A stretch of 64,000 nucleotides of DNA from an uncultured Lachnospiraceae bacterium (GTDB lineage Bacteria; Bacillota; Clostridia; Lachnospirales; Lachnospiraceae): positions 1 to 64,000 of the forward strand of contig CANQUA010000004.1 in assembly GCA_947626915.1 (NCBI GenBank). The letters run 5' to 3'. The notes beneath the pieces are model-generated. The model did not search any database. It was not told the origin of the DNA and saw nothing but the letters and a program-made list of their open reading frames with translations. Shown one piece after another: positions 12,076-54,462 of the stretch (the first letter of the stretch is position 1; every line of letters starts with the position of its first letter). The translations under genes and the position numbers were made by a program.

Positions 12076-12699
12076 TCAGAAATCAGCCCCGGCCTGCGCC
12101 TGGCCGGTCAGTCCGAGCCGTACCGCTCCCAGGAGCTGCACGTCTTCCTCCTGGTGGGTCGAGAGCAGGAGCAGTTTTCCGGCAGTTTTCTCTTTCATAT
12201 AGGAAATGACGGAAATCCGAGTCTCTTCGTCCAGTCCCGTAAACGGTTCGTCCATCAGAAGCACGTCGAAGGGAGCCAGGAGAGCCCGGCAGATGGCGGT
12301 CCGGCGTTTCATGCCGCCGCTCAGGGTAGAGACGGGGCGCGAGAGGGATTCCGCGGGCAGCAGGCGGCAGAGTTCGGCGCATACCTGCTTTTCGGAGAGA
12401 CGTTTTCCGGTGACCATCATCACGTTTTCTACGGGCGTGAATGCTTCGCAGAGCCGGTCTTCCTGGAAAACGGCGGAGAAGCGCGGGGTAAAAGTGCCTC
12501 CCGGCCTGCCCGCGTCCCAGCGGATCTCGCCGCCGTCCGCCGTCTCCAGACCCATCAGGATGCGGAAAAGCGTGGTTTTGCCGGAGCCGGACGGGGCCAT
12601 GAGGCAGTAGATGCGGCCGCTTTCCAGCTCCATGGAGACCCCGGTCAGCACGTCCAGATTGCCGAACGATTTGCGCAGGTCACGAACGGTCAGTTTCAT
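12076..12699 (-). CDS. ABC transporter ATP-binding protein (nitrate/sulfonate/taurine type)
   Basis: APSGSGKTTLFRILMGLE, STLSGGMKRRTAICRALL, LLMDEPFTGLD. Confidence 0.92.
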   Translation of the reverse strand: MKLTVRDLRKSFGNLDVLTGVSMELESGRIYCLMAPSGSGKTTLFRILMGLETADGGEIRWDAGRPGGTFTPRFSAVFQEDRLCEAFTPVENVMMVTGKRLSEKQVCAELCRLLPAESLSRPVSTLSGGMKRRTAICRALLAPFDVLLMDEPFTGLDEETRISVISYMKEKTAGKLLLLSTHQEEDVQLLGAVRLGLTGQAQAGADF

Positions 12700-13459
12700 G
12701 GACAGTTCCTCCGTTTCTCTGCAGTTTGGAAAGCGCCAGCAGGAAGAGCCGTTCGAACAGGGCGCTGATGACGATGATCACGAAGGTCCAGGCGAACAGA
12801 TCGGACGTGTCCAGGTAGATCTTGGACATGTAAAGCTGTTCGCCGATGGAATGATCCGGCACGCCGATGACCTCCGCGGCGACGCCGGATTTCCAGCTCA
12901 TGCCCAGGGCCACCCGGCAGCCGCTCAGCAGATAGGGCAGCAGGGCAGGCATGTAAATAAAGCGGATCTGTTTCAGGGCGGGGACACGGAAAATCTGCGC
13001 CATTTCCAGCAGCCCGGGATCGGTGCTTTCCAGGCCCGCGAGGGTATTCACGTAGATCATGGGCAGCACGACCAGAAACGCGATAAAGACCGCCAGCATC
13101 CGCGAACCGACCCAGATCAGGGCCAGGATGACGAAGGACGCTACCGGAATGGATTTCAGCAGAGAAATGACAGGGGCCAGCAGTTCCCGGATCAGCGGGA
13201 AACGGTAGGCCAGGCTGCCGGTCAGCAGGCCGCCGGAAAAGCCCAGCAGGAACCCCAGGCTGATCTTGGCGAAGGAATGCGCGATCGAGAGCCAGAATTC
13301 CCCGCTGGGCAGCAGGCGCAGAAGCGCCAGCGCCGCGTCAATGGGGCCGACCAGGATAATGTTGTTGCGGATCAGCCGCGCGGCGGCCTGCCAGACCAGC
13401 AGCCAGAAAAGGATGATGGCGGACCGCCGCAGCGCGGATGAGGAAAGAAACGGGTTCAT
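12680..13459 (-). CDS. ABC transporter permease (SsuC/TauC type)
   Basis: Multiple TM segments with PALLPYLLSGCRVALGMSWKSGVAAEVIG EAA-type loop; overlaps the ATPase gene. Confidence 0.9.
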   Translation of the reverse strand: MNPFLSSSALRRSAIILFWLLVWQAAARLIRNNIILVGPIDAALALLRLLPSGEFWLSIAHSFAKISLGFLLGFSGGLLTGSLAYRFPLIRELLAPVISLLKSIPVASFVILALIWVGSRMLAVFIAFLVVLPMIYVNTLAGLESTDPGLLEMAQIFRVPALKQIRFIYMPALLPYLLSGCRVALGMSWKSGVAAEVIGVPDHSIGEQLYMSKIYLDTSDLFAWTFVIIVISALFERLFLLALSKLQRNGGTVHETDRS

Positions 13460-13488: not shown

Positions 13489-14667
13489 TTACCGGGCGAA
13501 ATAGAAGGCGTCGTCGGGAAGCTGTCCGCCTACCGAAGTCGGATCCATTTCATAAAGGACGTTTAAATAACCGCTCAGCATCTCCTTCATCTGGTCGCCC
13601 TCGATGCAGACGATGCTGCAGTAGGGAAGCGCTTTCTGGGCTACCGGGGCTTTCTCGATGATGCCGAACTGGGCGACCAGTTCCGCGGCTCCCGCCACGT
13701 CGTCATTGGCGAAGCCGGCGGACGCGGCATGTTCATCCATGAAAAGCTTCACGGCCGCGGCGGAGGCTTCGTCCGCCAGCAGTTCGCTGCGGACTACGGT
13801 AACGCCGGTGACCAGACTGCCGCCGCCCTCCTGTCCCTCCTGGGCCTTGTCCCATTCCGCGGTCAGATCCAGGACGATCTTCAGGGCCTCATTCTGGGCC
13901 ATGGCGACGGTGACGAAGGGCTGGGGCAGCAGGCCGATGGCGTCGGCCTGTTCCTTTAAGACGGCGGCGACTTCCGTCGGCTCGGATTTATATTCAATGG
14001 TCAGATCGTCCGCGGACATGCCGTTGACGGCCAGCAGATGCTGGAATACGTAATCGGGCGTGGTGCCTTTGCCCGTCATGTAAACGGTTTTGCCCGCCAG
14101 ATCCGGGATGCTCTGGATGGAATCGTCGGCTGCCACCACATACAGAACGCCCAGCGTATTGATATTCAGGACGTTGACGCTCTGGCTGGTGCGCTGGTAG
14201 AGGATCGAGGACATATTGGCCGGAACCAGAACGATGTCCAGATCCTTGCTGACGACCTTGGCCACCAGTTCGGAGGCGTCGGATACCATCGTAAATTCAT
14301 AGCTTCCTTCGGCTTCGCCTTTTTCCGCCTTGTCCATCAGGGATACCAGACCCATGGAGGTCGGGCCCTTGAGGGAGCCGATGCGCAGCGTTACGGGCTC
14401 GGACTGTCCGGGGCCTTCCAGGCTGACTTCCGCGGCGGTCGTCTCCGCGGCCGTGGTGGTTTCCGGCGCAGCAGTCGTTTCCGCGGCCGTGGTGGTTTCC
14501 GGCGCAGCGGTCGTCTCCGCGGCGGTGGTTTCCGGAGCGGCGGTGGTCGTTTCGGCTGCGGTTGTGGTTCCTGCGGCAGTGGTTTCAGAGGTGGATGGGC
14601 CGGAGCAGCCGGATAAGAGGGCCGCCCCCATGGCGAACGCCATCACAATAGAGAGTGTCTTTTTCAT
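13489..14667 (-). CDS. ABC transporter substrate-binding lipoprotein (NMT1/SsuA-like)
   Basis: MKKTLSIVMAFAMGAALLSGCSG lipobox, then a T/A/P/E-rich linker and periplasmic-binding fold. Confidence 0.88.
   Translation of the reverse strand: MKKTLSIVMAFAMGAALLSGCSGPSTSETTAAGTTTAAETTTAAPETTAAETTAAPETTTAAETTAAPETTTAAETTAAEVSLEGPGQSEPVTLRIGSLKGPTSMGLVSLMDKAEKGEAEGSYEFTMVSDASELVAKVVSKDLDIVLVPANMSSILYQRTSQSVNVLNINTLGVLYVVAADDSIQSIPDLAGKTVYMTGKGTTPDYVFQHLLAVNGMSADDLTIEYKSEPTEVAAVLKEQADAIGLLPQPFVTVAMAQNEALKIVLDLTAEWDKAQEGQEGGGSLVTGVTVVRSELLADEASAAAVKLFMDEHAASAGFANDDVAGAAELVAQFGIIEKAPVAQKALPYCSIVCIEGDQMKEMLSGYLNVLYEMDPTSVGGQLPDDAFYFAR
14434..14590 (-). repeat. Low-complexity ETTAA/APETTTA coding repeats in the SBP linker
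   Basis: Repeated TTAAETTAAPETTTAAETTAAPETTTAAETTAA in translation. Confidence 0.85.
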
Positions 14668-14693
14668 AATTCATTTCCTCGCTTTCTTTTCTT

Positions 14694-14784
14694 CTCTGTC
14701 AGGAAATACCTTTCAGATGAGTATACCCTAAAACGGGAGGTCAGCGGTCGTTTTGCCTCTGTCAGGTATAACCTTTCAGGTGAG
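14694..14784 (-). promoter_or_regulatory. Tandem leader motif (two 28-nt copies) upstream of the ABC importer; candidate cis-regulatory RNA
   Basis: Minus strand CTCACCTGAAAGGTTATACCTGACAGAG and CTCATCTGAAAGGTATTTCCTGACAGAG, 24/28 identical, CTC/GAG ends, each following a GC stem. Confidence 0.5.
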
Positions 14785-15152
14785 CATCAGGCGGACCCGG
14801 CGTATCCCGCGTCCGGACCGACGGGATGAGTATAGCACATAAGAAGCGTTTCGTCTAGTGGCAAGTTTTACAGGATTGCGGTGCGCGATCTCTTAATTTT
14901 ATGAAAATGCGGTAGAAATCGGCGTTCGGATATAGTATACTGAGTATGACGGAGGCGGGGCCGGCGGATTGTTTTCTCTGTGACGGAGACGCTGACGGAG
15001 GATCGCAGCGGTTTGGGTACAGGAGCGGCCGGACTGCTGACAGCGTATTTTATAGAAAGAAAATGTACCAATCCGCAGGATCTGAACCGGCATGGCACAC
15101 AGATCCCGGAGAGGGCCTGCAAACGCTACTGCTACATTATTATAAGGGGGAT

Positions 15153-15734
15153 ATGCATAAGATGAGTGCAGCGACCGTAACATGCACCGCCGCGGAGGCG
15201 GTTGAGAAACTGAAAGAAGGGAACGCGCGTTATCTGGATGCGGCGAAAGGGGAGGGCGACGTTTCCCGGCAGCTGCGGGAGAAGACCTGCGCGGAGGGCC
15301 AGGCGCCTTACGCCATTGTGATCACCTGCTCCGATTCCCGGGTGATACCGGAGAGCATTTTCAGCGCGGGGATCGGCGATCTTTTCGTGATCCGCGTGGC
15401 CGGCAATGTGATCGACAATCACCAGCTGGGCAGCGTTGAATACGCCGCCGAGCATTTAGGCTGCCGCCTGATCGTCGTCATGGGCCATAATCACTGCGGG
15501 GCCGTGGACGCCGCGATTCATCACGATCCGGAGGGCTACATCAAATTCATCACGGACGAGATCCGCAGGGCCGTCGGGGAGGAGACGGACGATTATAAGG
15601 CATGCTGTCTGAATGTGCGGCGCAGCATCCGGGTCATTGAGGACAGCCTGGAGATCCGGCAGGAGGAAGAGCGGGGCCTGCGGGTCGTTGGGGCGATGTA
15701 TCATCTCGAAGACGGCAGAGTGGAGTTTTTGTGA
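15153..15734 (+). CDS. Beta-class carbonic anhydrase
   Basis: ITCSDSRVIPE and VMGHNHCGAV zinc-ligand motifs. Confidence 0.95.
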   Translation: MHKMSAATVTCTAAEAVEKLKEGNARYLDAAKGEGDVSRQLREKTCAEGQAPYAIVITCSDSRVIPESIFSAGIGDLFVIRVAGNVIDNHQLGSVEYAAEHLGCRLIVVMGHNHCGAVDAAIHHDPEGYIKFITDEIRRAVGEETDDYKACCLNVRRSIRVIEDSLEIRQEEERGLRVVGAMYHLEDGRVEFL

Positions 15735-54340: not shown

Positions 54341-54355
54341 TTAGACGAGCCAAAG

Positions 54356-54441
54356 AGCAGGGGAGCTTGTGGGCAGGCTGAGAGGAAGTAATCGAACTTC
54401 GACCCTTAAACCTGACGCGGATAATGCCGCCGTAGGAAGTC
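54356..54441 (+). ncRNA. TPP riboswitch (THI element)
   Basis: GGCTGAGAGGAAG...CTTCGACCCTTAAACCTGACGCGGATAATGCCGCCGTAGGAAG matches the TPP aptamer core. Confidence 0.93.
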
Positions 54442-54462
54442 ATGGAGAGATGGATTTTTACG

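Follow-up and report, generated by a model that had tools for sequence, protein, structure and literature searches.

Within the window (the whole 64,000-nucleotide stretch of DNA that we analyzed), the minus strand encodes an ABC importer operon in the order binding protein, permease, and ATPase. Its first gene (13489–14667) specifies a substrate-binding lipoprotein of the SsuA/NMT1 type, whose nearest solved structure is 3hn0. The permease gene (12680–13459; Pfam BPD_transp_1) and the ATPase gene (12076–12699; Pfam ABC_tran) follow on the same strand. A sigma-70-type promoter lies at 14829–14857 (minus strand), with TAGACG (14857–14852) and TATACT (14834–14829) separated by 17 nt, and relatives are arranged alike. 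A beta-carbonic anhydrase gene (14946–15734, plus strand) diverges from the importer operon. Elsewhere in the window, an ordinary known element, a TPP riboswitch, occupies 54349–54455 (plus strand; Rfam RF00059, 61.3 bits).

Between the promoter and the operon's start codon lie two minus-strand copies of a hairpin element, at 14757–14784 (distal; CTCACCTGAAAGGTTATACCTGACAGAG) and 14694–14721 (proximal; CTCATCTGAAAGGTATTTCCTGACAGAG). Because the promoter is upstream of both, both should be within the transcript. The initial annotation had described a tandem 28-nt repeat here, and its positions, its identity (24/28), and the distance of 63 nt between the copies are all correct. When the window was searched with up to three mismatches, these two copies were the sole matches, compared to 0.00 predicted from shuffled sequence. 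With zero mismatches, the core occurs at two sites in the entire 3.18 Mb genome, both of them the tandem copies of the repeat.

The proximal hairpin (14691–14722, core 14694–14721; minus strand) is defined by its sequence, a covariance-model match of 46.9 bits, and covariation in 36 sequences. An outer pair (CU 14721–14720 with AG 14692–14691) encloses a 3-bp helix, P1 (CUG 14716–14714 with CAG 14698–14696), then an inner loop (AA 14713–14712 opposite GA 14700–14699) and a second helix, P2 (AGG 14711–14709 with CCU 14703–14701). Eight nucleotides past this hairpin is a Shine-Dalgarno-like GCGAGGA (14676–14682, minus strand). The distal hairpin (14755–14785, core 14757–14784; minus strand) is placed by its sequence, a model match of 35.7 bits, and its predicted fold. 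It contains the same P1 (CUG 14779–14777 with CAG 14761–14759) and a P2 formed by AGGU (14774–14771) and ACCU (14767–14764). Its 3′ flank reads GAGGC in place of GAGAAG, giving a local base of GCU (14785–14783) and GGC (14757–14755). These assignments agree with the AGG/CCT pairing originally drawn for the repeat and amend the rest: the conserved outer pair is CU/AG rather than CTC/GAG, and the central CUG/CAG helix, which a purine internal loop parts from AGG/CCU, had been overlooked. Two flanking stems had also been proposed. Their letters are present (ATCCCG 14827–14822 with CGGGAT 14809–14804; AAAACG 14754–14749 with CGTTTT 14735–14730), but they are not conserved, being changed in the closest relative and missing from single-copy relatives.

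How widely is the element shared? Searching 99 related genomes with the binding protein, we obtained matches at E ≤ 1e-20 in 57. Every genus importer leader that we read (21/21) contains the element, mostly as one copy, approximately 17–25 nt upstream of the start codon and shortly past the promoter. One hairpin of approximately 37 nt makes up the unit; the tandem arrangement is limited to 2 of the 21 leaders, from the window genome (G000) and from its closest relative (G020). A separate pair of genomes, G056 and G411, has an independent tandem with other P1 letters; in their leaders (L031 and L055), a distal copy is followed by a proximal one whose P1, UUC/GAA, falls directly before the Shine-Dalgarno sequence. 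The confinement of the second copy to G000 and G020 among the genus leaders is what a chance or recent duplication without function would leave behind. However, the single element is kept in all 21 leaders and recurs at the same genes in two phyla. Setting aside the role of the extra copy, this pattern of sequence conservation already refutes a functionless duplication, to which we assign a negligible probability.

More widely, we searched 397 genomes of the family with a covariance model, whose E-values are optimistic. Some matches precede the same importer, in many cases with an intrinsic terminator separating the hairpin from the gene. Others precede a gene for a protein of 80–110 amino acids, TM1266, and the importer, or hydG and hydF, sometimes comes next. 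Model matches away from these target genes (L046, L048, L049, L052, and L215–L223) mostly fall within coding sequence, in sense or antisense orientation, and seem fortuitous. One doubtful 32.8-bit match (L214, 1501–1535, minus strand; P1 CUA/UAG) sits beside a terminator at the 3′ end of a gene in G615, a genome in which we detected no TM1266; it represents either chance or a stray copy. A search of 399 genomes for spread to other families of the window's phylum gave no convincing member beyond the window's own family.

The members share the consensus 5′-CU-NA-Y-P1-RA-AG…CU-GA-P1′-R-GA-AG-3′, in which P1 is 3 bp of nearly any sequence and a variable P2 and apical loop follow the first AG. Conservation of letters is confined to the two purine internal loops (NA/GA and RA/GA) and the pairs that border them; the intervening helix is kept solely as a helix. 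It appears as CUG/CAG, CCG/CGG, CCA/UGG, CCC/GGG, UUC/GAA, UGG/CCA, AGG/CCU, and UGC/GCA. The apical loop ranges from 4 nt to long inserts, as in L023 and, with repeated sequence, L024 and L025, and the base of the hairpin is retained throughout. The repeat units in the latter two, both binding-protein leaders, number one or two and approximately three, respectively, with both sides of P1 kept.

Covariation is strong. In counts that take the sequences as independent and ignore kinship, 18 sequences gave 22 double-change cells, compared to 7.8 ± 2.2 after shuffling (0/500 shuffles), and 32 sequences gave 43, compared to 16.9 (0/500). A set of 36 sequences from both phyla, in whose Bacteroidales members the 3′ strand of the hairpin is constrained by coding (start and MEK codons), gave 39, compared to 11.7 ± 2.5 (0/500), with 91% of cells paired. 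Slid structures score much below the true one in this last test. P1 is thus conserved as a helix through compensatory changes, which argues for RNA and not a DNA operator. An operator for a transcription factor, placed downstream of the promoter, would account for a repeat near the promoter with partial dyad symmetry. Yet P1 varies freely with compensation, the loops run from 4 nt to long inserts so that spacing is not fixed, and the Bacteroidales site reaches into coding sequence. We regard an operator as very improbable. The initial annotation had suggested a tandem aptamer or a tandem protein-binding site in RNA or DNA; a structured RNA is upheld, but the tandem is not essential to it and the DNA version is disfavored.

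The genes downstream of the element point to a shared pathway. NCBIfam assigns the 80–110-residue protein to TM1266 ("iron-only hydrogenase system putative regulator") and the products of adjacent genes to HydG and HydF; TM1266 accompanies hydE, hydG, and hydF. An unbiased, exact pattern search through 84,980 species genomes produced 103 hits, 94 of which are at TM1266 (68) or the importer (26). Sixty-five cover the TM1266 start codon (Bacteroidales-type records), 3 are upstream of TM1266, and 26 are upstream of the importer; the remainder comprise 4 at the ends of sequence stretches and 5 others, one of which (L177) also resembles a TM1266 start. Approximately 26 of 30 Bacteroidales TM1266 genes have the element over the start codon, some represented only by weak though correctly placed model matches. 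In Lachnospiraceae, the element was found near TM1266 or hydG at 6 of 24 family loci; it is upstream of several TM1266 genes, and most TM1266 genes have no detectable element. Variants stand just upstream of hydG, directly so in G165 and G162. At the level of sequence, these distributions show that the element is almost entirely restricted to TM1266, hydG, and the importer across two phyla, Bacillota and Bacteroidota.

In many relatives, the importer is itself linked to [FeFe]-hydrogenase genes. Approximately 2–8 kb separate the two in six relatives within the window's genus (G001, G002, G003, G011, G016, and G022), and the adjoining genes of a Hungatella genome match [FeFe] hydrogenase B1 in NCBIfam. 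The window genome has a hydrogenase approximately 61 kb from the importer on one and the same contig. The label first given to the operon, a nitrate/sulfonate/taurine-type importer, is right at the family level but overlooked this context of [FeFe]-hydrogenase maturation, with TM1266, hydG, and a linked importer. Two loci have other features of their own. In G314, the element preceding TM1266-hydG-hydF has a large SRP RNA gene (L045, 1556–1813, minus strand) ending approximately 25 nt before it. In a complete Lacrimispora genome, TM1266 matches in two overlapping pieces (G853:C1:625313–625539; L244 and L245) and HydG in two, which suggests frameshifts or sequencing errors.

We compared the element with known RNA families. 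The initial annotation could not match the motif to a known class, and this holds: when the window leader and 15 member loci were run through cmscan against the 4227 models of Rfam 15, no family matched at either gathering or permissive thresholds. No report of a leader RNA for TM1266, HydG, or hydrogenase genes turned up in the open-licence literature, and an earlier listing outside Rfam is possible. Guanidine-II (mini-ykkC) RNAs are small hairpins that may be paired in a leader and have ACGR loops. In contrast, the apical loop of our element is unconstrained and its conservation resides in the internal loops; it also has no Rfam match. Protein-bound autoregulatory hairpins, such as ribosomal-protein leaders and PyrR/BglG-type attenuators, offer another likeness: a short hairpin with conserved internal-loop letters, located at a regulator's start codon or in an attenuator. 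Here too there is no Rfam match, and the candidate protein, TM1266, is without known RNA binding. The NMT1 motif (xanthine-I) riboswitch is a leader RNA upstream of genes that include NMT1-type importers (PMC7373994). Both RNAs precede such importers but otherwise accompany different genes; the distinction is drawn from the genes and the absent Rfam match. The THF-II (folE motif) riboswitch is a simple single hairpin in the leader RNA of folate genes (PMC6800512). Our element shares this single-hairpin architecture but serves hydrogenase genes and has no Rfam match. Its layout resembles either a riboswitch or a protein-dependent attenuator. With compensatory changes in the transcribed leaders of functionally related genes, it probably represents a novel cis-regulatory RNA class that serves H-cluster biogenesis.

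Leaders from Hungatella and Lacrimispora suggest how such an RNA could work. UUCGU-N precedes the element and GCGAG follows it, and their pairing can create a base beneath the hairpin. This base helix is paired in 60 of 65 cells, with a compensatory UCCGC/GCGGA in G014. In an alternative predicted pairing, GGCGAGG joins the 5′ arm of the downstream terminator, so that these leaders are predicted to have a competing base helix, antiterminator, and terminator. Computed folds split between two states, differing among species. In the full transcript, UUCGUAC can also pair with GUACGGAC, directly upstream of the Shine-Dalgarno sequence. In Bacteroidales, the start codon is inside the hairpin, joined in some members by a Shine-Dalgarno-like GGAGG. 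Mutually exclusive structures were not evident in the window leader.

Given these arrangements, we consider it probable that the element is a cis-regulatory RNA acting as a feedback OFF switch for H-cluster assembly genes and the associated ABC importer. Control by an effector and the OFF direction are what we infer, the latter from folding and layout. Two observations weigh against this reading: the majority of Lachnospiraceae TM1266 genes show no element, and HydE and HydG went undetected in the window genome and several relatives. Effector binding would stabilize the hairpin and its base. In Hungatella and Lacrimispora, UUCGU would then capture GGCGAG and the antiterminator would be lost; with hairpin and base locked, the intrinsic terminator would be left free to form, turning expression off. 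In Bacteroidales, a stable hairpin would instead hide the TM1266 start codon and, in some members, the Shine-Dalgarno-like sequence as well. In the window genome, the proximal hairpin, close to the Shine-Dalgarno sequence, probably impedes initiation as a translational block, and the second copy may sharpen the response.

What might the effector be? Two candidates share this RNA-switch model and differ in the effector only. Provided that the element is a switch, we slightly favor a small molecule or cofactor intermediate, at somewhat short of even chances, over the TM1266 protein. A metabolite or metal riboswitch, sensing an H-cluster precursor, an iron-cyanide or CO species, or a precursor amino acid, is a serious if tentative candidate. 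Its strict purine internal loops flank a freely covarying helix, and the apical loop is unconstrained; tandem copies occur in two separate lineages (G000/G020 and G056/G411); and different phyla pair the element with an attenuator or a start-codon platform. For an aptamer, however, the hairpin is very small, and sites bound by proteins may resemble it.

TM1266 itself is a possible, slightly less probable effector. It would be an RNA-binding autorepressor at its own start codon and act in trans at the importer and hydG leaders. TM1266 carries the element more often than any other gene, and the hairpin takes in its start codon. The gene is present in 20 of 22 genomes with element hits (one frameshifted), and the two exceptions are doubtful or chance hits. 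Members of the window genus encode TM1266 at another place in the genome, from which it could act in trans. The protein has invariant Arg/Lys and GRxGxP residues and no conserved Cys or His; although labeled a regulator, it has no DNA-binding domain and only a weak match to the NikR C-terminal region. Its solved structure, 2nzc, was deposited as a hypothetical protein, and we know of no RNA binding by it. A small-molecule ligand would agree with these features equally well. On the other side, TM1266 is much commoner in Lachnospiraceae (81/150 genomes) than the element, mild evidence against a dedicated RNA repressor. In G014, whose genome is only 93% complete, we detected the element without TM1266; the incomplete genomes G004 and G009 are further exceptions.

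The gene content of these bacteria raises a further question about the importer. In the window genome (99.4% complete; G000:C30:28000–38439, L311) and in G012, we found TM1266, HydF, and [FeFe] hydrogenases but detected neither HydG nor HydE. G015, screened for HydE only, yielded no HydE and no HydG-like cross-match. TM1266 and HydF are directly adjacent in G012 and G015 (L312 and L316 among the loci). Several near-complete relatives likewise combine [FeFe] hydrogenases, TM1266, and HydF with no detectable HydE or HydG. That the importer compensates for the missing enzymes is speculation. Within the genus, it occurs in approximately 16 of 19 genomes lacking HydE and in 5 of 7 with HydE or fragments of it, which is no clear tracking, and Hungatella and Lacrimispora relatives hold the importer, HydG, and HydF together.

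In its most specific form, our interpretation is an RNA sensor class dedicated to the [FeFe]-hydrogenase H-cluster, which would bind an organometallic precursor or cofactor, or TM1266, and co-regulate an importer supplying a component for H-cluster assembly. We think this full version unlikely, though worth stating. If it is true, the importer perhaps lets bacteria with no detectable HydE or HydG mature their hydrogenases with HydF. The element also provides a handle on the function of TM1266, the cargo of this SsuA/NMT1-type importer, and the sensing of H-cluster supply by cells. Gut and rumen bacteria are numerous among the carriers, and because hydrogen turnover is central in those habitats, a switch for hydrogenase assembly would be of practical as well as basic interest.
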